Below, in pieces: positions 12,391-62,355 of a stretch of DNA of 64,000 nt. The DNA is from Lampris incognitus (taxonomy: Eukaryota > Chordata > Actinopteri > Lampriformes > Lampridae). The stretch spans positions 102,510,933-102,574,932 of the forward strand of contig NC_079212.1 in the NCBI RefSeq assembly GCF_029633865.1, written 5' to 3'. The stretch's first letter is position 1. Every line of letters begins with the position of its first letter. The notes beneath the pieces are model-generated. The model did no database searches. It saw only the letters and a program-made list of their open reading frames with translations, and was not told the origin of the DNA. The translations under genes were made by a program, and so were the position numbers.

Positions 12391-12542
12391 TGTAGCGAAT
12401 TCGGGGGGCAGCCCGGGAACCACCGCAGCCAGGACGCGAACCCGGATCTCCCGCACCGCGGGCAACAGCGTTAACCAGTCGACTAAAAGGATCCGACCCG
12501 TTAGCCAGGGGCTAGCGAATCTATTTATCCGTGCACGTTATA
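12391..12542 (-). mobile_element. 152-bp LTR with tRNA-like core (family of 58968-59119)
   Basis: Reads TGTAGCGAATTCGG...CGTTATA on the plus strand. Its reverse complement aligns along its whole length with the LTR at 58968-59119, and both are exactly 152 bp. Shared blocks include TAACGTGCA.GGATAA at the start, CCCGCGGTGCGGG in the middle, a B-box-like GGTTCGCGTCC (complement of 12432-12442) and CGAATTCGCTACA at the end. It may be a solo LTR or the 3-prime LTR of a minus-strand element. Confidence 0.7.
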
Positions 12543-12959
12543 CTACCTGTAATGTGTTTAAAATGGGACACACGTCTCAGTTGGGAGCCATGTTGTTTAT
12601 TCCGCAATGTGAACCAAGGTACGGGTGCTGTGTAGGGACAGAACAGACTGCATCTCCGGAATCCAAATGCAATGTGTTCACTTTCCCTCTTAAACAAAAA
12701 TAAACATTCATTGAACTTTATTTGTGTCAATAAACACAGCACCTGTTTACGTCTAAATGTGATTCTACACACAATAACTTGGAGGAGTGTTTACCAGCGC
12801 TTCACTTTCTTAAGGTGAGAAAAACAACTCAAAACATCAAACTCAACTCAAACTCAAACCACTTACAGATTCAGTCTATCAGGAGGCTTCACAACTCGGC
12901 CCCGCCTAGTAGTAAGCTGTTCAGCTGGCGGAGCTTAAGTGGGGCTCAAAGGTATTTTA

Positions 12960-20500: not shown

Positions 20501-20688
20501 AAGGATGCTGAATATGGAGCTGCCAGGGAAGAGGAGAAGAGGAAGGCCAAAGAGGAGGTTTATGGATGTGGTGAGGGAAGACATGCAGGTGGCTGGTGTG
20601 ACAGAGGAAGACGCAGAAGACAGGAAGAAATGGAAACGGATGATCCGCTGTGGCGACCCCTAACGGGAGCAGCCGAAAGTAGTAGTAG
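17552..20688 (+). mobile_element. Full-length RTE-clade LINE
   Basis: A 3137-bp non-LTR element. It is bounded by a perfect 18-bp target-site duplication ACTTGACATGTAGCGTCT at 17534-17551 and 20689-20706. It has a short 5-prime UTR (about 118 bp), one long ORF and a very short 3-prime UTR ending in AGTAGTAGT, all typical of RTE. The exact duplication and uninterrupted ORF suggest recent insertion. A decayed relative lies at 26805-32580 on the minus strand and a miniature derivative at 33571-33690. Confidence 0.95.
17670..20663 (+). CDS. RTE endonuclease-reverse transcriptase polyprotein
   Basis: A 997-residue single ORF. The AP-like endonuclease is about residues 60-290, with GTLNVGTM near 63, CVQETRW near 92 and GADFNGHVG near 199. 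A linker rich in Lys/Glu follows. The reverse transcriptase is about 500-800: GPDDIPVEAW, NYRGIKLISHSMKIWERV, VFVDLEKAYDRVPRE, GLHQGSALSPFLFA and the catalytic FADD at residues 747-750. The C-terminal region ends MIRCGDP, just before the conserved CGACCCCTAACGGGAGC 3-prime end. One oddity: in the endonuclease, CTQVVYILCRR has Val where the copy at 31340 has Asp (QVDYIL), an otherwise conserved acidic position, so the nuclease may be impaired. The ATG chosen gives the longest frame; a later start near residue 60 is possible. Confidence 0.93.
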   Translation: MRIINKTYIPDRSRPGLPTTATGTVNQQGVGGHYATVGRRRRRGGKHVQRQLERRKGRHVEVRVGTLNVGTMTGKGRELADMMERRKVGILCVQETRWKGSKARSIGGGFKLFYHGVNWRRNGVGVILKEEYVKSVLEVKRVSDRVMSMKLEIEGLLLNVISPYAPQVGCEMDEKEEFWNELDDMVERVPKEERVVIGADFNGHVGEGNRGDEEVMGKYRVKKRNVEGQMVVDFAKRMEMAVVNTYFKKREEHRVTYKSGGKCTQVVYILCRRHHLKGIGDCKVVTGESVARQHRMVVCRMTLETKKRKRVKTQPKIKWWKLKKEDCCVEFRQELRQALGGSEELPDGWKTTAEIVRETARKVLGVSSGQRKEDKETWWWNEEVQQIIQRKRLAKKKWDSQRDEESRQEYKEMQHKAKREVAKAKEKAYGELYDRLDTKEGEKDLYRLARQRDQVAKDVQQVRAIKDRDGNVLTSEESVLRRWKEYFEGLMNEENERERRLDDVGIVNQEVQRISKEEVRAAMKRMKNGKAVGPDDIPVEAWRCLGEMAVEFLTRLFNTILESERMPEEWRRSILVPIFKNKGDVQNCNNYRGIKLISHSMKIWERVIEARLRGEVTISEQQYGFMPRKSTTDAMFALRMLIEKYREGQKELHCVFVDLEKAYDRVPREEVWYCMRKSGVAEKYVGVVQDTYEGSVTMVRCAVGMTDGFKVEVGLHQGSALSPFLFAMVMDRLMDKIRQESPWTMMFADDIVICSESRVQVEESLERWRYALERRGMKVSRSKTEYLCVNEREDSGMVRMQGVEVTKTSEFKYLGSTVQSNGECSREVKKRVQAGWSGWRSVSGVICDRRVPARVKGKVYKMVVRPAMLYGLETVALTKRQEAELEVAELKMLRFSLGVTKKDRIRNDYIRGTAQVGRFGDKAREARLRWLGHVWRRDAEYIGRRMLNMELPGKRRRGRPKRRFMDVVREDMQVAGVTEEDAEDRKKWKRMIRCGDP

Positions 20689-26579: not shown

Positions 26580-27344
26580 TTTAGCGTATAACGTCAGTAA
26601 ACCAATCAGCGGAGCTGACTGAACTGGTGAATACCCAGTCAGAGATTTGAGGGAGGGGGGTTATCAATGACATCATGCAAGAATTTTGTCTTGTGTCATC
26701 TGTTATTGGCCAAAACACGTAAAATGAAGCTCCAACAGATGACATCCTACCTAACCACTCAACAACTAGAATACAATATTGACATCAATTTAGTCCAATG
26801 ATCATCTTCTTTTTGTGCTTGCTTCTATTAGGGGTCGCCACAGTGGATCATCCAATTCTAGCTCTTCCTGTCCTCTGCATCTTCCTCTGTCATGCCAACC
26901 ACCTGCATGTCCTCCCTCACCACATCCATAAACCTCCTCTTTGGCTTTCCTCTTTTCCTCTTCCCTGGCAGCTCCATATTCAGCGTCCTTCTCCCAATAT
27001 ACCCATCATCTCTCCTCCACACAGGTCCAAGCCATCTCAATCTCACCTCTCTTGCTTTGTCTCCAAACCGTCCAACCTGAGCTGTCCCTCGAATATACTC
27101 ATTCCTAATCCTGTCCTTCTTTGTCCTGCCCAATGAAACTCTTAGCATCTTCAACTCTGCCACCTCCAGCTCTCCCTCCTGTCTTTTTGTCAGTGCCACC
27201 ATCTCCATGCCATAAAACATAGCTGGTCTCACAACAATCTTGTAAATCATCCCTTTGAGTCTTGCTGGTACCCTTCTGTCACAAATCACTCCTGACACTT
27301 CTCCACCAACTCCACCCTGCTTGCACTCTCTTCTTCACCTCAAA

Positions 27345-27470
27345 AAGGCTCGAACTGAGGAAGCCTCTTGGATGAGAGGTGAAACGTCTTCACAGATATA
27401 TATCAAGTCCAGTTGCACTTGATTCAGCTCCTTTGGATAACCATGACCTGGATGAATGAGAACATTCACA
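27345..27470 (+). mobile_element. Solo Penelope LTR-like fragment
   Basis: Carries GAAGCCTCTTGGATGAGAGG through TCCAGTTGCACTTGATTC and GGATAACCATGACCTGG, matching the ends of the PLE copies at 8455-8560, 27755-27870 and 29450-29540. It interrupts the RTE C-terminal coding region. Confidence 0.7.
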
Positions 27471-27744
27471 GACTTCCACACTCTGTTACTTTGAACAGTT
27501 GACCCCAAGTATTTAAACTCATCCATCTTTGCCACCTCTACTCCTTGCATCCTCACCAATCCGCTGTTCTCCTTCTCATTCATGCATATGTATTCTGTCC
27601 TTTTTCTTCTTCTTAGTGATTTGTGAAAACAAGCAGCACAGTGGCGCAGTGGTTAGCATGGTCGCCTCACAACGTGAAGGTCCTGGGTTCGAACCCTGGG
27701 GTTGTCCAACCTTGGGGGTCACCCTGGGGTGTCCTCTGTGTGGA

Positions 27745-29540
27745 TATGTCTGTGAATGTTCTCATTCATCCAGGTCATGGTTATCCAAAGGAGTTGAATC
27801 AAGTGCAACTGGACTTGGTATATATCCATGAAGATGTTTCGCCTCTCATCCAAGAGGCTTCCTCAGTTCGTGCCTTTCTGACTAGACCAAGCTAGTCTGA
27901 CTGGCTGGTGATGAGACTCAGATATTTAGCCTCTAGGAGTCGACCAACCTCAGCCCAGACCAGATTTGCCAACTACTGGACCTTTGCCTGAACACTACAT
28001 ATTTCCAATTCAGGGGCCAGTTTTACAGACGCAAACACGGCTGTGCAACGGGCTCACCAGTATCGCCCATTGTGGCCAATTTATATAAGAAAGAGGTGGA
28101 ACACAGGGCCCTGAACTCCTTCAGAGGAACACCTCCGAGCCACTGGTTCAGACATGTGGAGGACACATGGGTTGAAATCCAAACACAAGAGGTGCAAGCG
28201 TTTACCAAACACATCAACTCAGTGGACAAGAACATTAAGTTCACAAGGGAAGACGTAAAGAACAGTTTGCCCTTCTTGGACTGTGACATCCATATTGGGG
28301 AAGACAGGAGCCTCCACATTGGGGTTTACAGGAAACCTACACACACAGACCAATATCTACTTTTCGACTCACACCACCCGCTGGAACACAAACTGAGCGT
28401 CATCAGAACTTTGCAACACAGAGCTGACAATGTGCCCAGCAGCACTCAGGCCCAACAAGAAGAACACAAACACCTGAGGGGAGCTTTAAAAACCTGCGGC
28501 TACCCCAGTTGGACCTTTGTGAAAACTGCAACACATTCCAAAAAGACCAACCAGGTGAGCGACGAGGAGAAAAGGAACAGAAGGAAGAGCACAGTCATCC
28601 CATATGTTTCTGGGGTCTCCGAGAAACTCAGGAGAATTTTCAACAAACACCTTATCCCGGTATACTTCAACCCAGCAACACACTCCGACAAAGACTGGTT
28701 CATCCCAAAGACCGTGTACCACACACCCGGAAAAGCAATCTGGTGTATGCCGTACAATGCAATGAGGATTACACGGACCTATACATAGGAGAAACCAAAC
28801 AACCACTACACAAACGGATGGCCCAACACAGAAGGCCAAACTCCTCAGGACAAGACTCAGCAGTCTATCCACACCTAAAGGAGAAGACACACTCCTTCGA
28901 GGACAGCAACGTACATATTTTGGACAGAGAAGATAGATGGTTTGAAAGAGGGGTGAAGGAAGCCATCTATTCGAAACTGGAAAAACCATCCCTCAACAGA
29001 GGAGGAGGTCTGCATCACCACCTATATCCCACTTACAATGCCGTCCTTTCATCTCTATCCAGGAGACTCGAGCCTCCGAGAATAACAGTCGGTCACTAAC
29101 GGCTCCAACCACTCTCATGACCACTGAATAATGAAGTCAAAATTAACTCCCCCAACGACCGTCGCTGCTAAATAAATGCAAATCAATAGCTCCGATGGCG
29201 ACGGGCCCGGCTGGACATCGAAGCACAGGAGAGCCACGCATATCAATAGCTCCGATAACGACGGGCGCAGCCAAACATCGGTACACAAAAGAGCCACTCA
29301 TATCTATGGCTCTGTTAGCAACGGGTGTTGGTAAACATCGGGACACAAAGAGCCACGCATATCAATAGCTCTGACACGACTCCTAGAAGCTAAATATCTG
29401 AGTCTCATCAACAGCCAGTCAGACTAGCTTGGTCTAGTCAGAAAGGCACGACCTGGGGAAGCCTCTTGGATGAGAGGGGAAACATCTTCACGGATATATA
29501 CCAAGTCCAGTTGCACTTGGTTCAACTCCTTTGGATATCT
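27745..29540 (+). mobile_element. Penelope-like element copy 2 with inverted ends
   Basis: A 1796-bp element flanked by a 10-bp duplication TCTGTGTGGA (27735-27744 and 29541-29550). Order: inverted LTR-like segment (27745-27960), RT C-terminal part, GIY-YIG nuclease, 60-bp tandem array (29177-29371), forward LTR-like segment (29372-29540). The two terminal segments are inverted relative to each other, as also seen in copy 1. The 5-prime half of the RT is missing. Confidence 0.85.
28003..29099 (+). pseudogene. PLE reverse transcriptase (C-terminal part) and GIY-YIG endonuclease
   Basis: The RT segment shows GSPVSPIVANLY (about 28050-28085), then FRHVEDTWVEI in place of the catalytic YVDDTWV box, so one catalytic Asp is Glu. 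It continues with NIKFTREDV, LPFLDCDIHIG and VYRKPTHTDQYL, the usual Penelope order. A frameshift near 28690 separates it from the nuclease, which is read in another frame: YAVQCNEDYTDLYIGETKQP (about 28747-28800), HKRMAQHRR, then FERGVKEAIYSKLEKPSLNR. The nuclease motifs Y-IG, R and E are present. Together they would form the usual RT plus GIY-YIG protein, but this copy is broken. Confidence 0.85.
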
Positions 29541-31407
29541 TCTGTGTGGAGTTTGCATGCTCTACCCATGTCTGTGTGGGTTTCCTCCAGGTGCTCCGGT
29601 TTCCTCCCACAGTCGAAAGACATGTAAATCAGGCGCATTGGCCATACTAAATTGTCCCTAGGTGCGAATGTGTTGCCCCTGTGTTGGACTGGCGGCCTGT
29701 CTAGGGGTTCTCCCTGCCTGCCACCCAATGACTGCTAGGTTGGCTCCAGCATCCCTGTGACCCCGATTGGGATAAGCGGCTTGGATAATGGATAGATGGC
29801 TGGTATTCCAACTTGCTCCTGCTAACTCAATCCTCCTCTCTTCAATGCATACTTCCACCTCTCCAGGCTCTCCTCAGCATACCCTCTACTCTCACTACAG
29901 ATCACAGTATCATCTGAAAACATCATATTCCACTGAGACTCCTGTCTGAGCTCGCCCATCAACCTGTCTATAACCACTGAAAACAGGAAAGGGCTCAGAG
30001 CCGATCGTCAGTGTTATCCCACCTCCACCTTGAACCCATCTGTCATTCCTACTGCACACCTCAAATCTGTCACACTGCCCTCATACATATCCTGCACCAC
30101 TCTTACATACTTCACTGCACTCCTGACTTCCTCATACAATACCACACCTCCTCTCTCAGCACCCTGTCATATGCTTTCTCTAAATCCACAAAAATACAAT
30201 ATAACTCCCTCTGACCATCTCTATACTTCTCCATGAACACTCTCAAAGCAAACATCGCATTTGTAGTGCTCTTTCGTGACATGAAACCATACTTCTGCTC
30301 ACTAATCATCACCTCTTAACCTTGCTTCTATTACTCTTTCTCATATCTCCATACTGTGGCTTATCAACTTTATACCTCTGTAGCTGCTACAGTTCTGCAT
30401 ATCACCATTACTCTTGAAAATCGGTACCAGTGTATTTCTTCTCAACTCCTCAGGTATCATCTCACTAGTATTAAACAATCTAGTTAAGAAATTCACTGGG
30501 ATCCCTCCTAAACATCTCCATGCCTCCACAGGTATGTCATCTGGACCAACCGCCTTTCTACTCTTCATCGTCTTCATAGCCACCCTCACTTCATCCTTGA
30601 TAATCCACCACACTTCCTAATTCACGATCCCCACATCATCCAGCCTTCTCTCTCTCTCATTTTCTTCATTCTGCAGCCCTTTCAAGTACTCCTTCTACCT
30701 TTTCAACACACTGTCCTCACTTGTCAGCACATTTCCATCTCTATCCGTCCTCACCCAACCTGCTGCACATCCTTCCCAGCTTCCTCCCTCTGTTACAAGT
30801 CGTTACAAGTCCTTTTCTCCTTCATTTGTGTCCAATCCTCTCATACAACTCACCATACGCCTTTCCTTAACCTTCGCCAGCTCTCTCTTCGCTTTATGCC
30901 AGATCTCCTTGTACTCCTGTCTACTTTCTTCATCTCTCTGACTATCCCACTTTTTCACCAACCTTTTCCTCTGTATACTTTCCTGTAATTCCTCATTCCA
31001 ACCACCAGGTCTCCTTGTCTTCCTTCCTCTGTCCAGGTGACACACCAAGTACCTTCCTAGGTGTCTCTCTCACTGTTTCTACAGTGGTTGCCCAGCCATC
31101 CGGCAACTCTTCACTACAACCCAGTGCCTGTCTTAACCCCTCCCTGAACTCCACACAGCAGTCTTCCTTCTTCAACTTCCACCATTTGATCCTTGGCTCT
31201 GCTTTCACTCTCTTCCTCTTCTTGATCTCTAAAGTCATCCAACAGACCACAAGCCGATGCTGCCTAGCTACGTTCTCTCCTGTCACCACCTTGCAGCCTC
31301 CAATCCCTTTCAGATTTCACCTCCTACATAAGATATAGTCCACCTGTGTGCACCCTCTTCCACTGTTACACGTCACCCTGTGTTCCTCCCTTTTCTTGAA
31401 ATGCATA

Positions 31408-32059
31408 TTCAGATTCAGACAACTTTATTTTATCTCACAAGGCCAATACGGTTCTTACAGTCCACCCAGACATACACAAACTCACAGACAAGTGGCAATC
31501 ATCACCATGTCAGAGACAATAGACAGATCAGTACATGGGCAAGAGATGCACACCGCCACCCCCATGTGGCCCTGCATGAAGACTCACACGAGGACCAGGC
31601 GAAGGGCAAGTCAAAAGAATAGAATAATAAATAAATAAATGAAGCATTCTAAGATGCATTGCACGTTACACTCCCCCACTACAGTCAGTGAACGCACAGG
31701 CCCACAAGGCATGCGAAAAACAGACAAGGTATAAACCAACTATTGTGATTTAAAACAATATAAAGCATTTATTTAAAATGTCTAATCTCAACATTTAATG
31801 GCCTGATAGCAGAAGGAATGAAGGACCTAGAACAGCGATTTGTTTTCCTAGGGGGCGCTTTATAGGCCGGCCTGAGGGCATTACAGTGAATTCACTGGAC
31901 AGGACGTGGTCAGATTGGCTAACAATTCCTTTTGCTTTCTGGGCCACACGTTTCTCCCAGAGGGAGCACAAGTCTCTCTGCTGGACTCCCATTATTTTGG
32001 AGCAGACCTTAACGATACTGTTTAGTCTATTTCTGTCCTAAACAGTATCGTTAAGGTCT
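31408..32059 (-). mobile_element. LINE 3-prime fragment with fold-back 5-prime end
   Basis: Inserted in RTE copy 2. The left edge, read on the minus strand, ends GATAAAATAAAGTTGTCTGA, a LINE tail. The minus frame near 31992-31795 encodes a LINE C-terminal segment (HVLSSEFTVMPSGRP ... VLGPSFLLLSGH). The right edge is a perfect 22-bp palindrome (32004-32025 / 32038-32059, 12-nt loop). TATTCA occurs at both junctions and may be a short duplication. Probably Rex1-like, but not certain. Confidence 0.6.
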
Positions 32060-32589
32060 CCTCCAAAAGGAATTTTATTCACTACAGCTATCTCCATCTT
32101 TTTCGCAAAATCCACCACCATCTGTCCATTCACATTCCTCTCCTTAGTACCATACCTACCTATCACCTCTGTTCCCTTCACCAATATGTCCACTGAAGTC
32201 CACTCCAATCACCACTCTCTCCTCCTTGGGTACACTCTCCACCACTTTATCCAACTCACTTCAGAGTTATTTCTCTTTCATCTCACACCCAACTTGCGGC
32301 GCATATGTGCTGATAACAGTCATCATCAAACCTTCGATTTCCAGCTTCATACTCATCACTCTGTCCATCACTCCAACACGCTCTTGACATACTCTTCCTT
32401 CGGGATTACCCCTGCCCCATTTCTCTTTCCATCCACACCACGGTAGAAGAGTTTGAACCCACCTCTGATGCTCCTGGCCTTACACCTGGTCTCTTGCACA
32501 CTATGTACCCTCCTTCTTTCCATCATATCAGCCAGCTGTCTCTCTTTTCTAGTCATAGTGCCAACATTCAACATCCCAACAGGCCTCAC

Positions 32590-50360: not shown

Positions 50361-50493
50361 TAACTTTTTGCCTTGCAGTTACAGCCCTCCACCAGCAGGA
50401 AGTGCTGCATCCCCTTATGCACCCCATACTTCAAGCATCCCTGGCTGTATCTGTCATCGTGTACCTTTGGTCTTTTTCTGATAATAGGCTACG

Positions 50494-51267
50494 TGTTATG
50501 CTCGCGCACCAGAACCTGACCCGTGTGGCGAAACCCAAGACAGACAGACACGAGATGACTTCAAAATCTACAAAGGGGGGTTTTATTGTGGGAGGGGAAT
50601 GTATGGTGAAAAAAGGCGTTCTGTTAGTGGGATGTGTAAATAAACTATGTGTGGTGTCCCGTGGTTTGCGTGTATAACTATGTGTGAGTGTTTTTAGCCT
50701 ATGTGTGGTGCTGTATGTAAATGACCAGGGGGTGTTGAAAAAATGTGCATGCACCTGGCGAGAAAGTCCAGTCCGAGATCCAAGAGGGGTTGTCCGAGAA
50801 AGTCCAGGTCCGAGATCCGGGAAGTCGAGTCCGAAAGGAGGGGTCCAGATAGAGGTACAAGGGGGGAGATCGCAGGAGAGGTCCGGGGAGAAAACGTGAA
50901 GGTCGCTGGGGACGAGGGAGACGCGGGGAGCCGTGGAAATCGCGGAGGGAGAGTCTTGGGAGGAAACAGAGACACGAAGATAAGACACTGGGGAATAAAC
51001 AGAATGCAAGGAACGCTGGAGGGCTTGTCAGAACTTCACCGCAGGGTTCAGTACGTCGAAGCACTGAGAGACGTTCTGGGAGGCTTCTTGTAGAAGGCTG
51101 CCTGATTGCCACAGGTGTGCCTGATGGATAATGGCAAACACCTGGTGCAGTGCAGCGCTCGTCTCCTCAGAGCGCGAGCCGAGCGCTCGGATGTTTCCGG
51201 CACGTCCGAGCTGGGGGAGTGGCTTGAACGTGCCGGGGAGGCAGCTCGGGGCGGTGTAACCACAACA
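50494..51267 (-). repeat. Gypsy-1 3-prime LTR
   Basis: TG...CA ends. A purine tract (complement of 51268-51282, GGAGGGGGGTCC) lies on its inner side, which fixes it as the 3-prime LTR of a minus-strand element. Confidence 0.9.
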
Positions 51268-52186: not shown

Positions 52187-54644
52187 TCATAAGTCAAGGA
52201 TTTGTCTTGGTTTGATCGTGCGACCTGACCTCGTGGTGTAACCAGGCTGTGTGTCTGGTTGTCGCTGATTGTTCGTGTCTGGAGGTTCAGTATGCTCTTG
52301 CTGATGGGCTTGTGTGTTGTTGTTAGCGCTGGTAACAGTCTGCTGTGAAGTGTGTGTGTGTGTAGTGTGAGTGTTCACTCTGCTTTGTCGCAGGTGTTGA
52401 CGGTTGCGTTGGTAGATCTGACCTTCTTTGGTTTGGATGTGGTAGCTCCTGTCTGTGTTCGCTGGTCTTTCCACAGTTGCAGGTCTCCAGGATCCATCCT
52501 CCTGCCGGAAGCGGATTGGTGTGCCTGCGGGCAGGTGGGGCAGAGGTTTGGCTGTTCGGTTGTAGTATGCCTGCTAGCGCTGTTGACATACCTCTCTCCT
52601 TTTGTGAACATCCTCCTGACTGGCGATCTGTGGCTGCAGGTGTTTTGCTGTTGATGGGAGAATGGACCGCAGCCTCCGACTCATCAGTAGCTGTGCCGGT
52701 GATTTCAGGTTGTCCACCGGTGTGTTGCGATACTCCAGTAAGCTCATGTAGGGGTCTTTGTTCTCAGCTTTGGCTTTGTCCAGGATGCGTTTGGCCGTCT
52801 GGACAGTCTTCTCGGAGAGGCCGTTGCTCTGTGGGTAGTGGGGGCTTGTGGTGGTGTGTGAGAAACCCCATGTCTGTGAGAAGTTGCGGAACTCACCAGA
52901 GCTGTAGCACGGACCGTTGTCGCTGATGATAGTCTCGGGGATTCCGTGTCGAGCCATTGCTGCTTTCAGCTTCATGATGACGGCAGATGAGGTGCAGCTG
53001 TAAAGTCTCTCTAGCTCGAAGAATCTGGAGTAGTAGTCCACAGTGACTATGAAGTCCTGTGAGTTCCATGTGAATAGGTCTGTGCCTATCACTTGCCACG
53101 GCCGCTCGGGTATGGCGTGTGACCTCATTGGTTCCTTTGCATTTGCGCTGCGCCGTTCTTGGCATATGCTGCAGTCTGCTACCGCATCCTCGATCTGTTT
53201 CCCCATGCCAGGCCAGAACAGTAAGTCTCTTGCTCGGCATTTGCTTTTTTCCACGCCGAGGTGGCCGGCTTGGATGCGCTGTATCATGTCCTTGCGAAGC
53301 TTTTGGGGGACAATGATTCTCTCACCTTTGAACAGGATACCGTCCATTTCTGAGATTTCTGCTCTGTGGTTCCAGTATTCCTGGATGCTGGGCGGGCACT
53401 TTTTCTTTGTGTCTGGCCAGCCAGTGAGTGTGGCTCGTCTGAGTGCGGTGAGCTGTGGATCTTGCGCCGTTTCCTGCTTGATTTCTGTGAGTCTTGTGTC
53501 GCTCACAGGGATGTTGCTGAGGACTGTGTGCACTTGGGCCTCCATCCCTTCCTGTAGGTCACTGTCGTGGTGTTCTATTGACTTGCGTGACAGTGTGTCG
53601 GCCACCGGTATGTCCTTACCGGGGCGGTGGATGATTTGGATGTCGTATTTTTGGAGCGCCAGGATCATCCGTTGCAGCCGGGGTGGTGCTGCTGCCAGTG
53701 GCTTTTTTTAGTATTGCCTCCAGAGGCTTGTGGTCTGACTCCACAATCACTTTTCGTCCGTACATGTACTCGTGGAACCTCTTGCAGCCGAAGACCACAG
53801 CGTAGAGCTCCTTCTCTATCTGTGCGTAGTTTTCTTCAGTGCTGTTGAGTGACTTGGACGCATAGGCAATTGGTTTGCCATCTTGGAGCATGACAGCCCC
53901 AAGGCCACTTTTGGATGCATCCACTTGGAGTCGCAGCTCTTTCTGCGGGTCGAAATATGAGAGTACTGGACCTGGGTGCTGTGTAATGAGATTCTTCATC
54001 TCCTGGAACGCCTTGTCATGGACTGCATCCCACACAAACTCACTGTCCTGTTTCAGAAGCTGTCTGAGGGGTGAGTTTATCTGTGAGAGGTGTGGAGCGA
54101 ATCTGGCGAGGTAGTTGATCATCCCGAGGACTGTCTCCAGCTCTGCTTTGTTCTGTGGGGGTTGCATGTCCTTGACCGCCTTCACCTTGTGTGGGTCTGG
54201 TTTGATGCCTTCGTGTGAGACCGTGTGGCCTTAGTAGCTTACCTCGGACACGCATATGTGACACTTGTCGGGGTTGAGCCTCACCCCTCGCTCCCTTGTG
54301 TGCTTCAGCATCGCTCTGAGACACTGGTCATGTTCCTCTTTAGTCTTGCCGAACACTAGTATGTCGTCCACTATGGCCGTCACACCGTCCAATCCTTCAT
54401 ATGTTTCATCCACGCGTCTCTGGAACTCGTCTTGAGCGGACACGATTCCGAATGGCAGTCTGAGGAAACGATACCTGCCAAACACTGTGTTAAATGTCAA
54501 CATTGAGGATTCAGTGCTCAGTTTGATGGCCCAATAGCCTGACCGCGCGTCTAACACGCTAAAGTACTCAGCTCCAGCGAGCTTTGTGGTGGTGTCCTCC
54601 AGCGTGGGGAGGGGGTAGTGAGGTCGTTGTATCACTTTGTTAAG
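52187..54644 (-). pseudogene. Gypsy-2 pol: RT, RNase H and integrase
   Basis: Minus strand. The RT begins at 54644 (HYPLPTLEDTT, FSVLDARSGYWAIKL, then the catalytic IVDDILVFG near 54370). A premature TAG follows at about 54231. RNase H is at 54000-53700 (LQVDASKSGLGAVMLQDG, VESDHKPLEAIL) with a frameshift near 53705. The integrase (53668-52574) has a zinc finger HLGVEKSKCRARDLLFW and CSICQERR, and catalytic D (IGTDLFTWN), D (IISDNGPCYS) and E (NGLSEKTVQ). It ends with a low-complexity tail. The upstream part of RT continues at 58710-58324, across the inserted unit. Related to the pol at 12960-14647. Confidence 0.9.
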
Positions 54645-55405
54645 AGCTCAACAGCTTGTATCCACGTCCACTATCAAAACCCAAAATTTACGATTTTCAC
54701 ATTTCTCGATACACCTCGACGAGACGAATCGGATGAGCCCAATTTTGTTCTATGGAAACATTTTTTGGTTATGATTTGCATTATGCACCACATGCGGTGC
54801 ATAACTCTGAAGACGGAGGTGCCGTACGGCCCCCAGGGGAGGTAGCAGCTCGATTTTTTTTACTGATTCGTCAATACCTAAGACTCCTTAGTAAATCTAC
54901 CGAGTTTCGGAATCGTCGCATAAACGGGCACGAGTTGGCAGAATTGGCAGAATTTTGGCAGAATTTTGGCTGAATGGCTGAATGGGGGGATGAGGGGGAA
55001 AACAGTTGGCTAGCGGTTCGAACCTGGTACGGCTGCGTTCAGCACACTCTCCGGAACCACACGCAGTTGTCCGTTCGAAAAAATTCCAAACGGTTCCGGA
55101 TTTATTAATGTTGGAAGAATTCATAACTTATCCGTATGAGATAGGCCTTCGAAAGCAACACATATGGTGCAGGCTTACCTCCATTGTAACAACAACAAAA
55201 TAAAGTGCTCAAAAATGCATTTTCTTCACATATTCTTCAACACCTGAGACCCCTGACTAATAATCTAGAGTTTCGGAGCCATTGCTCAAGTTGGCACCGT
55301 TTGGCTGAATGGGCATATCCTGCCAGCTGGTTGGCACAGCTTGGCAGAAGGGAGGAAACAGTGATATTGTTTGACAAATTAGGTACCGCTGCGTTCAGCT
55401 CACTT

Positions 55406-55605
55406 NNNNNNNNNNNNNNNNNNNNNNNNNNNNNNNNNNNNNNNNNNNNNNNNNNNNNNNNNNNNNNNNNNNNNNNNNNNNNNNNNNNNNNNNNNNNNNN
55501 NNNNNNNNNNNNNNNNNNNNNNNNNNNNNNNNNNNNNNNNNNNNNNNNNNNNNNNNNNNNNNNNNNNNNNNNNNNNNNNNNNNNNNNNNNNNNNNNNNNN
55601 NNNNN
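55406..55605. other. Assembly gap (200 N)
   Basis: Exactly 200 N, so probably an arbitrary gap length. It lies beside a duplicated segment and probably hides 5-prime exons of the recombinase-SET gene. Confidence 0.98.
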
Positions 55606-55675
55606 AATGTAATATTGTAAAATAAACTATATTTTCAGACACAACTAATGCAATCTCTCCTGGATCCATCCACAG

Positions 55676-57466
55676 GTCGGCGAATGGCATAAGCGGGTTA
55701 AGAAAGGCTCCGGTGGTACCGTGGTTCTCGTCAAGAAGCACAAGACGGCAGCCCAACAGCCAGCAGCCTTTGTCTTGGATCAAGAGCAAGAAGCCTGGTT
55801 TGAAGCCTACTACGAGTGTGTCAGAGAACACATGAAGCAAGGTTGCAGAGGAGATGGCCAGAAGGCACCTAAACGGCGAAAGATGGAACAGAGGGCAACT
55901 GATGGTGAGAAAGTGGTCGAAAATGCTGAGGAACCGTTCTTCCTGAATCTGGCTGGCTCGCGAATCAAGAATCCCTCCCTGCATCTCAGTCGGCTGCATA
56001 CCAAGTAAGTCCTGTGTTAACTATTAAAAGCTAGATCCAAACAGACTTGGTTTTTTAAAAACATTTCTGAGGTGAGCCTTTTCCTCCCTTAATGTTTATA
56101 AAATGATCATAACATTGTTCCTTTTTTCTTGTCATTATTAGATACAAACTCCCAGATGTGAACAGCGATGAGGTTCGGAAAGTCTTCGAGACAGCAACAG
56201 TCTCTGAGTGTTTTGAAGCAGGGGACAAAAAACTCTTCAGCAACTACCTGAGTCATACTGTGGCAACTGCAGAGGGTCATTATCAGATGAAACAGATATC
56301 TGATTTGATCAAGGCCACAGAACTCATCAAGCGTCTTGGATCAAGGTAAGCACATCAGCATTGAATGACAACATGTTTCTTAGACAATGGACCCTGTCTG
56401 CATATCCGGATTGAAAATTGATGTAATATTCTCTTTTTTTCAGTGAAAGACCTTCTGACAGACCCTCCACGTCCAGCGAGGTACCCTCACCCTCTGAGGA
56501 ACAGAGTGAAGACAGCAGTGGCTCAACAGCGACACTCAAACCATCGGCAAATAAAAAGATGACAGACCAGATTCTGTTTGATCGTTTCCAGACAGAATTC
56601 CCCGTGACAGTCGATGATCTTGCACCAACTCGAGAGAAACGCCTCAACTTCCTTTCTACTCTGAGTGTTGAAGAAGACAGAGAGAGCATGCTCTACAACC
56701 GTTGGGTGAAAAAGCAACGGAAACTCCGCCAAGACTACACCTTGGGTAAGGATATTATAAATTATCATAACCACATCATGATTACCAGACAATCTTTGAC
56801 TGCATGTGATTGGGATGTAGGTATTAACTTGTGAACTTATTTTGTTATTTTTCATTTACAGAACACATGAGCCAACGCCATTGCCCCTCCAAGAAACGGA
56901 TTGAGAGGTTTTTCCTGCAGCAGGGTTGGAAACATGCGCTGCCAAACATCGACCAGATCACCCAGTCGTGGAAACCAGCCGAAGATCCGCTGTCTTCTCC
57001 CAGAATCAGGCGTCTTGTCAGTAGCCAACGATGGAAGGGTTTGGAGATCAAGAGCATTCCTGATAAGGGAAGAGGGGTATTCACAAGGCGTGCATTCAAG
57101 ATGGGCGAGGTAGTGTGCGACTACCATGGTGACCTTCTCACCGCAGCTCAAGGTCAGGCTGTTCATGAGAGCACCATTGGAGAGGAGACGGGCTACATGT
57201 ACTTTTTTCTAAACGAAGACGGAGAGAAAATGTGCATTGATGCACATCAGAAGTGTCAATGTCACCCAGATATGGACGTAAAAGGCAGGCTTATTAACCA
57301 CTCAAGAAAGCCAAACCTCAAGCCTCTTGACTTGGATGGGGATAAGAGAGATTATATCCTCTTTGTCGCAAAGCAGGACATCAGCGAAGGGGAAGAACTT
57401 ACCTTTGATTATGGTGTAAATAAGTTCCAGTTTGGTGGTGAGGCCAGAGACCTTGACTGGCTCTGA
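55676..57466 (+). CDS. Tyrosine recombinase-KMT5A-like SET fusion protein, 5-prime incomplete
   Basis: Four exons, 55676-56004, 56142-56345, 56444-56745 and 56862-57466, with GT-AG borders and phases 2, 2, 1. They join into 479 open codons ending in TGA. The first part (about 1-175) is the C-terminal catalytic half of a tyrosine recombinase: HKT (about 23-25), Arg122 in DEVRKVFET, and His148 with the nucleophile Tyr157 in LSHTVATAEGHY. The upstream box-I Arg would be in the gap. Residues 180-335 are a Ser-rich linker and a region ending SSQRWKGL. A SET domain occupies about 338-465: KGRGV (347-351), DYHGDL (365-370), GYMYFF (389-394), GRLINHS (420-426) and FDYG (460-463), ending DLDWL. The NHS and DYG motifs for S-adenosylmethionine binding and catalysis are intact, and the arrangement is closest to KMT5A/SETD8 (histone H4 Lys20 methylase). 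Substrate and activity are unknown. Intact splicing and no stops suggest recent function. Confidence 0.85.
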
Positions 57467-57622
57467 TCAAGCATGGCTTTTTTGCCAGAGTAAAGCCACT
57501 ACATGAACAGGCAGGCAGGATCTAAATTGGAATGAATGATAAAGTTATGTTGCCTTTCACAGGGAACCGCTAACTTTATATTTCTCTCTGGGATAATGTA
57601 AGTGCTGTAGATCAGTGATGTA

Positions 57623-57628
57623 AATAAA
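57623..57628 (+). promoter_or_regulatory. Polyadenylation signal of recombinase-SET gene
   Basis: AATAAA 157 bp after the TGA stop. Confidence 0.6.
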
Positions 57629-57729
57629 GATGTGTAAAAAACAAGTTATGTGTGACTATGTTACTCTCTAGATACTTCTTTTGAATTCTGATATTACATT
57701 TGATATTGCCACTAAATTTTTCTCAAACT

Positions 57730-57768
<39 letters not shown>
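57730..57768 (+). repeat. (CA)n microsatellite
   Basis: About 19 uninterrupted CA units. Confidence 0.95.
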
Positions 57769-57769
<1 letters not shown>

Positions 57770-57800
57770 TTGCAGTTGACTGGATGAAAAACACATGACC

Positions 57801-58316
57801 ACATGTGTTGCACCCATTTTTTGTCGTTGCAGAATCCTGAGAGGAAGTAGGTATTTTTTGGCTTGACAGTCGAAGAATCAATATAACATTGGCTTGAATT
57901 GTAAGCTGTTAAAAAACAATTTTTTTTCAATATGAACTGTCACCCTATGTGTTGCATGAGCAATATTAATGAATTTTCAAAATTGCCTCAAAAGAGAATC
58001 TTTTGGTGTATTTGGTGGCTTAAAAGAAAGAGGATTCAAATGATATAGGCCTCACCGCAAAGGGAAACCCACAGAAAAAATCTTTCCGATGACAACCGTC
58101 ACCACATTTGGTGAAAATCTCAGAATTTATAAAAAAATGAAAAAACACACGTATATGGAAGCTTGAAGTCAAATACCGTGATGATTTATGTTTTAAAGTG
58201 TTTCAAATGGCGTTACGGAGGCTTGGGGACCGTACACCACATGTGTTAGAGGCCTTGCAACACATGTGGTGAAAATGCAACACCTGTGGTGAAAATGCAA
58301 CACATGTGTTGATGGC
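57801..58316 (+). repeat. Cluster of CACATGTG-type motifs
   Basis: CCACATGTGTTGCA at 57799, CCACATGTGTTAGA at 58238, then three spaced units CAACACATGTGGTGAAAATG, CAACACCTGTGGTGAAAATG and CAACACATGTGTTGATGG at 58258-58315. The last unit ends at the right boundary of the inserted unit. Confidence 0.7.
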
Positions 58317-58323
58317 TCAAGCT

Positions 58324-58710
58324 CTGGGGTCTAAACACACTAAGTTTGCCTGTCTTTGGCTTCTCAACAATGACGAGTGCGTTCACCCATTCTGTGGGTT
58401 CTGTTATCTTACAGATTATGCCGCCTTTCTCCATGCTGTCAAGCTCGTCCCTCAGTTTGCTGCGTAGGGCGATGGGGATTCTGCGTGGCGGGCAGACGAC
58501 CGGCGTTGCATCTGGTGTGACGCGGAAGGTGCACTCGCCTGGGAACTCTCCTATTCCCTGGAAAACATCTGCATACTCATCCATTATGCTCTGTAATGTG
58601 ACATTGTTTTCCTCGCTCACAGCCATCACTATTTTTACCAAGTTTAGGTCACGGCATGTTCTCATTGCCATGACTGGTGGGGCGTTTGTGTCAATGACTG
58701 TTAAATGTCG
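58324..58710 (-). pseudogene. Gypsy-2 pol, upstream RT part
   Basis: The minus frame contains MDEYADVFQGIGEFPGECTF, then PRRIPIALRSKLRDELD and EWVNALVIVEKPKTGKL, the start of a gypsy RT. It stops at the inserted unit and its continuation is at 54644. A small deletion shifts the frame just before the junction. Everything upstream (protease, gag, 5-prime LTR) is missing at 58710. Confidence 0.88.
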
Positions 58711-59119
58711 AGAAGACACGCTGGCCGCTGGCTGGCGGGTCTGACCCTTTAGTCTAGCGGTTAGCGATGTCTCCTGCGGTGCGGGCGATAGGGGTTCGCT
58801 TCCCGGCCGCGGCAGTTCCTGTGGTTGCGTTGTCCCCCGAATTCGCTACATTGGTGTCAGAAGTGGGATGGAGCGACCGTAAGGCCATCGGAAGCGTAGG
58901 CGCCCTGAGGCGTGAAAGAGCTGATATGCTTAAGCGCGGGGACGCGCTTCCCGAAGGAGGGGGGTAGTGTAACGTGCATGGATAAGAAGACACGCTGGCC
59001 GCTGGCTGGCGGGCCTGACCCTTTAGTGTAGCGGTTAGCGATGCCTCCCGCGGTGCGGGCGATACGGGTTCGTGTCCCGGCCGCGGTAGTTCCTGTGGTT
59101 GCCTCCCGAATTCGCTACA
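58711..59119 (+). mobile_element. TRIM-like LTR element with tRNA-like LTRs
   Basis: LTR 1 is 58711-58850 (its first about 17 bp are lost). The primer-binding site is TGGTGTCAGAAGTGGGAT at 58852-58869, complementary to the 3-prime end of tRNA-Leu(CAA) with CCA. The interior is 117 bp and non-coding. The purine tract GAAGGAGGGGGG is at 58953-58964. LTR 2 is 58968-59119 (152 bp, TGTAAC...GCTACA). Each LTR contains an A-box-like TAGCGGTTAGCG (59029-59040 in LTR 2) and a B-box-like GGTTCGTGTCC (59067-59077), as in tRNA genes. It interrupts the hAT transposase on its right side. A full-length LTR of the same family is at 12391-12542. Confidence 0.82.
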
Positions 59120-59914
59120 CTTGGCAATAAATCCATTGGAGCGGCCCACCATAGCAGGCGCACCGTCCGTGGTGATTGACATCAGTTTACACACTGGGAG
59201 CTGGATTTTATCCACAAAGTTTTTGAAGATCTGAAAAATGTCCTCTTCCCGCGTGTGTTCCTTCATGGGTAGTATTGTTAACAGCTCCTCTTTTGCGGTC
59301 ATATCTTGAAACACCATGCGAATGAAAATGCACAATTGGGCCGTATCACTTATGTCCGTAGACTCGTCCAATTGTAGTGAGAAACACTCGCAGTCCACGA
59401 TGTCCCTCCAAAGCTGCTGTGTCAAATCATCGCCCATCACTTCACAGCGCCTTGTGACAGAATTTCTTGATAACTAGAGAGCTTTGATTGAAGATATTTC
59501 TGATTTGTTTTTAAAATCCCGAAACAACGAATCTGCTGCCTCAAGGAAGGCCTCTTTCATCATCTCTCCATCTTGGAAGGCTTTCTTATGCTTAATGATG
59601 GAGTGACTCACCCGTAAAGATGCTTCGGTGGCTGCCTTTGCCTTCGGGAAAAGTGACTGCTGGGCGATTAACTGCGATTTTAGTTCGCCCACCTCTCTCT
59701 TTCTCAGCTCGCTTTTCGGAGGGAAGTCATTGTCATAGTTTTTATGAACAGTTCGAAAGTGCCTCTCCACATTTCCTTTCTTTGGGATAGCAATGCTAGA
59801 CTGACAGATGAGACAAACGTATTTGGAATAAGACATGGTGAAAAAAAAAGTCCTCCTCCCATTCCACAAGGAAATGGTACGTTTTTTGTTTCTTACTAGG
59901 TCCGGCTCCCCCAC
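59120..59914 (-). pseudogene. hAT (Charlie/GTF2IRD2-like) transposase fragment
   Basis: The N-terminal ORF (about 59836-59474) starts MSYSKYVCLICQSSIAIPKK and contains a BED-type zinc finger (C..C in CLIC, then H.....H in ERHFRTVHKNY). After one TAG stop the frame continues at 59440 with FSLQLDESTDISDTAQLCIF, the first catalytic-Asp region of hAT transposases, then TTDGAPAMVGRSNGFIAK, where the TRIM interrupts it. The C-terminal dimerisation region is absent. The sequence style matches the hAT transposase related to human GTF2IRD2. Non-functional. Confidence 0.82.
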
Positions 59915-60274
59915 TCATTTTTGTTTTGTTTCACTTTAGTAGAATTTTTTTTTTTTTAAAGAGTTGAACTAGCTAGCTCGATGCAGTTCTGCGTTAGCTC
60001 ACGTTGTGGGCATGTGAACTTCAAGGTACGTTCAAGACGGGCTCTGGTTGTTATGCTAACCTAATGTAACAAAGTTTTAGGTTCCGCTCTAGAATCTTTG
60101 GTTTTAGTCAACAGCAGACTGGCCGTCCTTTACGTCAATCAAAAGGCAAATGGAGGACAGGTGATAGGCTAATGTCTTGGGAAAAAAAAAAGTTTTTTGG
60201 AATGTCATGGAGATCTACCAGCACTGCCTTCGCGATCTACTGGTCGATCGCGATCGACGTAGTGGGCACCCCTG
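59120..60274 (-). mobile_element. hAT transposon, 5-prime part
   Basis: Minus strand. The 5-prime end at 60274 reads CAGGGGTGCCCACTACGTCG, a hAT-type terminus with an internal GATCGCGATC palindrome. It is inserted in the gypsy-1 protease region. It is cut on the left by the TRIM at 59119, and its 3-prime half is not found. Confidence 0.8.
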
Positions 60275-61587
60275 ATCTAGGGCTTGGGCTGTGTCTAGGG
60301 GGACGAGTGGAATGCCGGCCTGCCGGGCCAGCGAGATGTCCATCAAAACACTCGTCCGCCCCCGAATCCAGGAGTGCACCAACAGACAGTGAGTGGTTAC
60401 CCCAGGTGAGAGTGACCGGAAAAGGGTGGTTGTGCTCCTTGGGCTGGGGCGTCAGGCTCACTAGGACACCCCTCACTAGTGAGCCGGGTCTTTTTGGGCG
60501 AGTCGGGCAGGCCTTGATATAGTGGCCCGACCTCCCGCAGTAGAGGCAGAGGTGGCCATGCATCCTCTGCTCCCCAACCTCCAGCGGGAGCCGTGACCGA
60601 CCCAACTGCATGGGCTCCTCCTCCTCCGGCCTGGATCCAGAAGCCACCCAGGGTTGCGAGGGGGAGTGTGAGGGTGGAGAGAGCCCACGGGACGCTGACC
60701 CAAGGAAGGCACCGGTAGGACGGACGGGGGTTGGTCTATGGGAGGGGCCAGCGCGCGGGGCGCGTTCCTGGCGCCGCTCGTCCATCTGGAGGGCGAGGGT
60801 GACGAGCTCGTTGAAGGAGGCAGGGTGGTCCCGAACGATGAGATCTTTGATGGGCTCGCTCAGCCCCCTGCTGTACGCGCTCTTGAGCGCAGTGTCATCC
60901 CACCCACTGTCTGCCGCGAGTATCCTTACCTCCAAGGAATAATCTGCCACCGACCTGGCTCCCTGTTGGATGGAATGGAGGCGGCCGGCAGCGTCCTGCC
61001 CGTCAGCTGGGTGGTCGAACACCAGCTTGAACTCGCGGCGGAAGGCACCATAGTCCGAGGCGAGCTGCTCGGTATGGCCTACCGCCGCTATGGCCCAGCT
61101 GAGGGCTTAGCAGGTGGGGAGGGACATGACAAGGGCTACCTTGGTCTCTCCTGTCCTATACCTGGCTGGTGTTTGAACAGGAACTCACACTGACCAAGGA
61201 AACCCCTGCACAGCTCGAACTCCCCACCGAAGGCCTTGGGGCAGGGGAGGTTAGGCTCGCACCGGGGGTTGACTCGGAGAAGGGGGAACGTCGGGACCAG
61301 AAACGGGGAAACCGGAGGCCGAGCTGGGGGCAGAGACCGAGGCCAGGGCAGGGTGGTCGCTCATCCTGGAGACCGCTGTGGAGAGTGCAGCGATCTGCGC
61401 GGTGAGGGCATCTAACGCGCTCGTCGCGGCCTGGGAGCCGTACTGAAGATCGCCGATCTCTCCGGTGAAGGCAGTAGTAAGCTCTGAGCGGAGAGAGGCA
61501 AGTTGGCAACTGTGACTTCTTACTACTGCCTCTAGGGGGACGGGGCGTCAAAGGGACCGTCCGCTCCTTGGGTTTGCCTGGGTCCAT
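60275..61587 (-). pseudogene. Gypsy-1 gag and protease start
   Basis: Minus strand from ATG at about 61587 (MDPGKPKERTVPL). An early frame break occurs around 61160-61500. The main part (61022-60275) is capsid-like (FDHPADGQDAAGRLHSIQQG, SVADYSLEVRILA), followed by a CCHC zinc knuckle CLYCGRSGHYIKACP and the aspartic protease start ALLDSGADECF. The hAT then interrupts it at 60274. Gag of this type packages the element RNA; this copy is broken by frameshifts and the insertion. Confidence 0.88.
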
Positions 61588-61603
61588 AATGGCTCCGACA
61601 TTC

Positions 61604-62355
61604 TGTTATGCTCGCGCACCAGAACCTGACCCGTGTGGCGAAACCCAAGACAGACAGACACGAGATGACTTCAAAATCTACAAAGGGGGGTTTTATTGTG
61701 GGAGGGGAATGTATGGTGAAAAAGGCGTTCTGTTAGTGGGATGTGTAAATAAACTGTGGTGTCCCGTGGTTTGCGTGTATAACTATGTGTGAGTGTTTTT
61801 AGCCTATGTGTGGTGCTGTATGTAAATGACCAGGGGGTGTTGAAAAAATGTGCGTGCACCTGGCGAGAAAGTCCAGTCCGAGATCCAAGAGGGGTTGTCC
61901 GAGAAAGTCCAGGTCCGAGATGTCGAGTCCGAAAGGAGGGGTCCAGATAGAGGTACAAGGGGGGAAATCGCAGGAGAGGTCCGGGGAGAAAACGTGAAGG
62001 TCGCTGGGGACGAGGGAGCCGTGGAAATCGCGGAGGGAGAGTCTTGGGAGGAAACAGAGACACGAAGATAAGACACTGGGGAATAAACGGAATGCAAGGA
62101 ACGCTGGAGGGCTTGTCAGAACTTCACCGCAGGGTTCAGTACGTCGAAGCACTGAGAGACGTTCTGGGAGGCTTCTTGTAGAAGGCTGCCTGATTGCCAC
62201 AGGTGTGCCTGATGGATAATGGCAAACACCTGGTGCAGTGCAGCGCTCGTCTCCTCAGAGCGCGAGCCGAGCGCTCGGATGTTTCCGACACGTCCGAGCT
62301 GGGGGAGTGGCTTGAACGTGCCGGGGAGGCAGCTCGGGGCGGTGTAACCACAACA
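61604..62355 (-). repeat. Gypsy-1 5-prime LTR
   Basis: Near-identical to 50494-51267 apart from small deletions (for example at about 61921 and 62016). The gag ATG is just inside. Confidence 0.9.

Follow-up and report, generated by a model that had tools for sequence, protein, structure and literature searches.

Within the 64,000-nucleotide stretch of Lampris incognitus (opah) DNA that we analyzed, here called the window, an interrupted gypsy pol gene encloses an element whose gene encodes a tyrosine recombinase (YR) joined to a KMT5A-like SET domain (Table 1). With its three GT-AG introns removed, the four-exon sequence visible in the window, whose last exon includes the stop codon, reads through 479 codons with no internal stop, so that exon joining reproduced the open reading given in a preliminary description of this DNA. 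That description had also placed both activities in one protein, and this is borne out by a single annotated Lampris protein and by fused relatives in many fishes. Its catalytic positions hold for Arg122, His148, and Tyr157, while the HKT motif lies at residues 22 to 24, not 23 to 25. The joined window protein is 99% identical to the product of LOC130131646 isoform X5 (P0001). Since P0001 matches, exon by exon, a second copy of the element on contig C27, this annotation describes that sister copy, the window itself lying on C2. Everything upstream of the window's exons is cut off by an assembly gap, and the first catalytic Arg (in a QRPG motif) accordingly sits on an upstream exon that is absent from the window and present in the sister copies. 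In addition, the window copy is 12 bases (4 residues) shorter in a SET loop at 57326 than the copies on C27 and C41.

Table 1. Features of the element and of the interrupted gypsy gene in the window
Positions	Strand	Feature	Evidence or remark
52574..54644	-	3' side of interrupted gypsy pol (RT, RNase H, integrase; three open frames)	Pfam RVT_1, RT_RNaseH, Integrase_H2C2, rve
54645..54649	+	Core AGCTC at left junction, read as target-derived	C27 AGTTC, C1 ATCTC at the same place
54650..55405	+	Left end of element, 756 bases	Also C27:26772642-26773402; C1 at 97%
55406..55605	.	Assembly gap, 200 N	C27 copy: about 27 kb between pieces matching the gap's two sides
55676..56004	+	Exon: YR catalytic part with VKKHKTA lysines	5' splice site 56005
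56142..56345	+	Exon: YR Arg II 56176-56178, His 56254-56256, nucleophile Tyr 56281-56283	Conservation in family alignment
56444..56745	+	Exon: linker and conserved helical module preceding SET domain	
56862..57466	+	Exon: remaining linker and KMT5A-like SET domain (about 57068-57415), stop 57464-57466	Pfam, nearest solved structures, fold of family member
57798..58313	+	Subterminal region with repeated palindromic CAACACATGTGTTG-like motifs	Repeat families D1-D3, inverted pairs
58320..58324	+	Right terminus AGCTC	Identical last bases in C2, C27, C41, then differing flanks
58325..58710	-	5' side of interrupted gypsy pol (N-terminal RT part)	Joined to other flank reads VCLDPRALNKVIQRPHYPLPT

The surroundings of the element form a gypsy nest, bracketed by a direct, near-identical LTR-like pair (50481-51267 and 61586-62355; gaps aside, 5 of 764 aligned bases differ) and accompanied by a gag ORF on the minus strand (60240-61106). 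As the nest is mixed, the LTR pair is unsuited to dating. DUF4371 and Spin-doc zinc-finger-like fragments, which we take to be hAT-like, are nested in the gypsy region on the minus strand (58754-59914). A short segment occurs twice nearby (58711-58854 and 58985-59124, about 90% alike) and once more at 12391-12547, and the sequence near 58850 that follows the repeated segment is presumably a retrotransposon primer-binding site, judging by its appearance. Elsewhere in the window, a long inverted duplication in pieces pairs 17859-20671 with 26820-32580 at about 82 to 90% identity.

The protein family across fishes

A first protein search with the joined window protein returned 22 matches, comprising P0001 itself, P0002 to P0008 from other fishes, one further YR-plus-SET protein (P0009), and 13 KMT5A-type proteins. 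A search with the YR part, for which a five-row alignment (A2) was used and 7,994 candidates were scored, returned at least 78 proteins, a number to be read as a lower bound. These matches span catfish, characins, loaches, killifish, wrasse, toadfish, seabream, cod, and salmonids, among others, and also mormyrids, gar, bichir, and sturgeon; many of them are partial or lack the SET domain. Full-length relatives of about 770 to 890 residues are found in many ray-finned fishes and show a common order, with a zinc-finger-like start (CPxC..HLRRxC), a core-binding domain, the motifs QRPGVV, VKEHKTA, TSQxARR, and YLTHSxATAEKHY, a helical linker, and SET. Using P0009 as the query brought in P0096, a 616-residue metagenome protein encoded on a 3,064-base contig, at 26% identity over 97%. 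When 51 of the 96 proteins were placed in a tree, P0009 and P0096 branched outside the 49 fish rows, both on long branches. The scans of viral_contigs contained no relatives.

Several distinct family proteins per genome are present in Serrasalmus and in Paramormyrops, and the 36 members of the P0006 cluster are not a copy number, since they may include isoforms or repeated records. The opah genome itself holds more divergent YR-family exons (G000 C2:75236290-75268941 and C16:54072359-54073841), apparently a second lineage. A separate observation concerns P0021 of Scophthalmus maximus (433 amino acids), one of the 13 KMT5A-type matches and a predicted protein, possibly a prediction artifact, with a KMT5A-type SET domain and the domains PF13384, PF01498, and PF13565; we take the latter three to be Tc1/mariner-type, which would make this a SETMAR-like combination.

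Recombinase and SET halves of the protein

The two halves differ in how readily profile models recognize them. On the joined window protein, Pfam reported SET and, below threshold, the related PR domain, with no recombinase family; on P0001, it matched SET alone. Other family members gave sub-threshold matches to Phage_int_SAM and XerC/XerD. Among the 34 members of alignment A3, searched at E values of up to 0.1, SET was found in 28, Phage_int_SAM_4 in 22, and Phage_int_SAM_1 in 14. The integrase matches lay below the cut-off in the six proteins for which cut-offs were shown, and no Pfam or NCBIfam model exceeded its own cut-off on the YR half. NCBIfam Xer-type models matched the YR stretch weakly in four of the five fish proteins scanned, the exception being P0001. 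DUF3504, whose name in the model library is unconfirmed, was absent from the Pfam scans at E values of up to 5 (6 proteins) or 0.1 (34 proteins), no Crypton hit turned up in the family scans, PHROGs gave no recombinase match, and a PDB sequence search by YR profile gave chance-level matches only.

Structure comparison adds to this picture. In predicted structures, one half of the protein groups with Xer/Cre recombinases and the other with SETD8, and a predicted model of the YR part alone aligns to Xer, Cre, lambda Int, and Flp, with an rmsd of 10 to 12 Å for the top Xer rows; Foldseek by itself returned no YR match below an E value of 0.001 (best, Cre at 0.24). An HMM search, put forward in the preliminary description as able to overturn the recombinase, thus found no full recombinase model above its cut-off, but fold comparison and sub-threshold matches favor the recombinase fold claimed there. 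Judging by the predicted models, the recombinase half is real and has the YR/topoisomerase IB fold.

Active-site residues were counted in alignment A4, which holds 43 of the 96 proteins, picked mainly by length; the rows that keep them number 36/43 for Arg I, 40/42 for Lys, 41/43 for Arg II, 40/41 for His, and 36/41 for Tyr. Within the set R...K...HxxR...H...Y, the residues R, K, R, H, and Y are thus present in 36 to 41 of 41 to 43 rows, and the His of HxxR is replaced: three positions before Arg II, most members have Gln and Lampris has Asp, not the usual His. The exceptional rows, among them those without Arg I (7 of 43) or without Tyr (5 of 41), are decayed, misannotated, or truly altered, and some copies are thus altered or decayed.

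For the SET half, Pfam places the domain at residues 348 to 463 of the joined protein (E value, 1.7e-18), and the solved structures nearest to that protein are those of SETD8/KMT5A, the histone H4K20 monomethyltransferase. The earlier label "KMT5A-like" is apt in that this is the nearest family by sequence and fold, but the family stands apart by its identity to SETD8 of only about 30 to 35%, by a CxCH insert of its own, and by a mostly Phe F/Y switch. The insert, which precedes GRLINHS, occurs in all 27 family rows as well as in P0009 and P0096, against 0 of 13 KMT5A rows. The switch residue is Phe in 24 of the 27 family rows (Tyr in two, Leu in one) and Tyr in all 13 KMT5A rows, so that the family lacks the KMT5A trait of a Tyr limiting the enzyme to monomethylation; of the two distant relatives, P0009 has Phe and P0096 has Tyr. 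The Asn of NHS and the catalytic Tyr are each kept in 22 of the 27 rows, and in a SET tree one fully supported branch splits 22 family rows from the 13 KMT5A rows. Among the best 80 of 161 loci in a scan of genome_contigs, bacterial SET proteins match the query from about residue 450 on. According to PMC6214909, the Y334F change turns SET8 from a mono- into a dimethyltransferase, and because of this switch we predict dimethylation for the element's SET. The methyltransferase activity, substrate, and purpose that we assign to this half are likewise predictions, as is the earlier proposal that it would mark chromatin where the element leaves or enters or would silence the element.

Copies, ends, and insertion sites in the opah genome

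The search for copies covered one genome, the 1.48-Gb assembly of Lampris incognitus, in which window positions 55606-58324 have 14 matching stretches. Whole right ends are found on C2 (the window), C27, and C41, right-part pieces, partly N, on C162, C525, and C16 (a cluster of seven pieces within about 0.21 Mb), and a decayed piece on C1, so that several copies are readable only in part. The pieces on C162 and C525 hardly differ from C41 and may represent the same locus, assembled twice. The left end (54645-55405) occurs on C2, C27, and C1, and contains two diverged repeats in tandem, each about 190 bases long (54852-55046 and 55217-55403; score of 57, against a shuffle maximum of 27). Between C2 and C27, the left ends differ at 1 of 761 positions, a base of the target-derived core, and the right parts have 3 substitutions over 2,719 bases together with gaps of 12 bases (in the SET exon) and 14 bases (in a CA run). 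The flanks of C2, C27, and C41 show no similarity to one another by BLAST and have low local alignment scores. The preliminary description had advised looking for copies at different loci, and these three indeed lie at unrelated places with common ends; the copying is very recent.

In the C27 copy, the two ends of the element are about 30.7 kb apart. Its upstream exons, among them the zinc-finger exon, precede those seen in the window, and its interior includes at least 10 kb of a G-rich minisatellite (pieces L116 and L115) with units such as GGAGGGAATGGAGGGG, which is open in several frames on both strands. By comparison with this copy, the gap in the window should hide the upstream exons and a long G-rich minisatellite, the latter being the likely cause of the gap. 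At the other end, the palindromic CAACACATGTGTTG-like motifs are possible binding sites for the recombinase or a host factor. The last 270 bases of C16 copies L105 and L106 differ from those of L103 by about 10% (25/239 and 22/203), compared with about 0.5% in the exons, so that this subterminal region may be a mosaic or else a recognition region that changes more quickly. The element has no long terminal inverted repeats; a candidate for such repeats proved to be just a weak 62-column inverted subterminal similarity, which 1 of 200 shuffles reaches.

We also considered purifying selection within Lampris, on the grounds of a contrast between exons (7 changes in 1,449) and nonexon sequence (46 in 1,233), which came mostly from the right subterminal region. 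Compared with the C16 copies, the introns (3 changes in 351) are about as well kept as the exons (7 in 1,449), and the claim was dropped for that reason. A better argument for selection is that both active sites are conserved across fishes.

The bases at the ends differ in kind between the two sides. The left junctions read TTAAG/AGCTC/AACAGC on C2, CTCCA/AGTTC/AACAGC on C27, and GCACA/ATCTC/AACAGC on C1, while CTCA/AGCTC/ is followed on the right by TGGGG (C2), CCTGAC (C27), or CCATGG (C41), with AGCTC in three of three cases. The direct repeats at the ends are thus short, as in Cryptons (4 to 6 bases without long terminal inverted repeats), with AGCTC at both ends on C2 and a 4-of-5 match on C27 (AGTTC and AGCTC). 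The short direct repeats anticipated earlier do not amount to a simple target-site duplication at these junctions. The unequal cores fit YR integration beside a short match better, and the single-base difference on C27 could also stem from later mutation. Of the seven bases preceding the left junction, 5 (C2), 6 (C27), and 6 (C1) agree with CAAGCTC at the end of the element; in the window background, 1.1% of positions reach at least 5 and 0.10% at least 6, figures to be read with the heptamer having been chosen after seeing the data. Joining the two ends gives CAAGCT-CAAC-AGCTTG, and inverted arms of 6 arose in 176 of 20,000 shuffles.

With the element removed and one core retained, the C2 site reads VCLDPRALNKVIQRPHYPLPT, in frame with the downstream RT, a frame break lying just upstream in that gypsy. 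On C27, the empty site gives LLSKFPDFTQPTFSSSTTKHGVEHH if the left (target) core is retained and KLPDF if the element core is, and a frame break follows further on. Removal of the element hence restores the gypsy pol frame at both loci with two readable flanks. A 6-base repeat, TTGAGC (54646 and 58315), was discarded as a duplication, since it did not restore the RT frame when read by eye. The right flank on C41 reads LPWVMLGLRTAPKEDL and is 74% identical to the C27 gypsy over 61 residues. Pfam gave no family for 58325-58710 taken alone, which is short, and no match for the short C41 flank piece. The left flank on C1 (110 bases) is not recognizably coding or gypsy, and the right end there is lost. 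Gypsy pol is therefore the target at three of four readable sites, in both orientations, a count that does not take into account gypsy's share of the genome.

A proposed mode of movement and its relation to known systems

Taken together, these data make it likely that the window contains one copy of a recently mobile YR DNA transposon, whose gene encodes a zinc-finger-like N terminus, YR core-binding and catalytic domains, a helical linker, and a KMT5A-like SET domain. We infer that the element is moved by its own YR through a circular intermediate. The YR would excise the element and join its ends into a circle with the junction CAAGCTC/AACAGCTTG, at which a 6-base inverted repeat would surround the exchange point. 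This junction would then recombine with a short stretch of similar sequence at a new target, so that the core of the target would end up at the left junction and AGCTC, from the element, at the right one. Held on the DNA by the YR and the zinc finger, the SET half would methylate a histone lysine beside the element or the target; the site may be H4K20, and the Phe at the F/Y switch would favor dimethylation.

The ends are also what bears on whether another enzyme moved the element. YR strand exchange takes place within a short, imperfectly matched overlap and can leave unequal cores, one from the target and one from the element, which is unexpected of a DDE target duplication. A DDE transposase making 5-base target duplications, for instance, with the YR-SET gene as a passenger, would account for the window copy, which has AGCTC on both sides as a duplication leaves it, and for the C27 cores, which are one base apart. 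A duplication would, however, vary both cores together, whereas the right core is AGCTC in all three copies whatever the target and the left one varies. Long terminal inverted repeats are lacking and the 62-column similarity is weak, and no other transposase was recognized when the reading frames of most of the C27 element were read by eye (a 2.6-kb piece, L126, was left out), so that we regard a foreign mover as unlikely. That a host gene, a domesticated recombinase-methylase, was spread by segmental duplication is very improbable: the seven C16 pieces within about 0.21 Mb do look like local amplification, and introns and an annotated product suit a host gene, but the copies on C2, C27, and C41 share end bases and no flanks, and they lie inside different gypsy genes.

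The window's exon joins are predictions, and two neighboring genes, a recombinase and a KMT5A-like SET gene, could in principle have been joined by them. Against this stand single annotated proteins with both halves in several fish species and two short contigs, of 2,664 and 3,064 bases, that encode the fused proteins P0025 (811 residues) and P0096 (616 residues), which leaves this reading hardly any probability. Carriage of the insert inside a retrotransposon copy, as opposed to entry into gypsy DNA by itself, is suggested by the near-identical LTRs (5 mismatches in 764) on either side of the window copy; since the copies on C27 and C41 interrupt different gypsy genes at different positions, a single carrier is insufficient, and we give this account almost no credence.

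A YR transposon carrying its own SET domain has partial parallels. SETMAR, a single host gene, combines SET with the Hsmar1 mariner transposase, a DDE-type part. The opah protein resembles it in uniting SET and a DNA-moving enzyme in one vertebrate polypeptide, but the opah element is multicopy, uses a YR, and has the opposite domain order, with SET last. HarbingerS and MuDR are DDE superfamilies. In Phytophthora, transposons of these two kinds have taken up SET histone methyltransferase genes, as stated in PMC12730594. They share with the opah element a transposon-encoded SET histone methyltransferase, while their hosts are oomycetes and here a YR is fused to SET in a vertebrate.

In its mode of movement, the element is most like Cryptons, described by Kojima and Jurka (2011, PMC3212892) as having neither terminal inverted repeats nor long direct repeats, 4- or 6-base terminal repeats, and a proposed circular intermediate. 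The likeness lies in the YR as mover, the lack of long terminal inverted repeats, the short direct end repeats, and the presumed circle, and the element would work like a Crypton, with its class left unassigned and Crypton sequences not compared. It differs in the fused SET, in the very long minisatellite interior of one copy, and perhaps in the unequal cores. The same source reports DUF3504 matches for three animal Cryptons, in contrast to the family's Pfam scans, and names C48 peptidase and GCR1_C among the Crypton partner domains, the word "methyltransferase" being absent from its main text. The DUF3504 genes KCTD1, ZMYM2-4, and QRICH1, which are domesticated Crypton YRs, have lost most catalytic residues (PMC3212892); both groups are vertebrate and YR derived, but most aligned rows of the present family keep their catalytic residues. 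The papers searched describe no YR-SET transposon, an earlier account in Repbase Reports or subscription papers being possible, and none of them links KMT5A with a tyrosine recombinase or treats a KMT5A-like gene family in fish. SET-bearing transposons of other kinds are known, and what is apparently new, as judged from the papers searched, is a YR transposon with a fused histone methylase.

The finding adds a widespread YR transposon lineage of fishes, the members of which are filed by annotation as uncharacterized proteins or as KMT5A. Mobile elements are usually regarded as targets of histone methylation, and here a mover and a histone methyltransferase domain make up one vertebrate polypeptide, which opens the question of whether chromatin at a transposon's donor or target site is marked by the transposon itself. 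We suggest, tentatively and with considerable doubt, that a YR transposon lineage of bichir, sturgeon, gar, and teleosts, with distant relatives, may carry its own histone lysine dimethylase within the recombinase protein and may use it to choose or mark chromatin, for example, in entering gypsy DNA and staying tolerated there.
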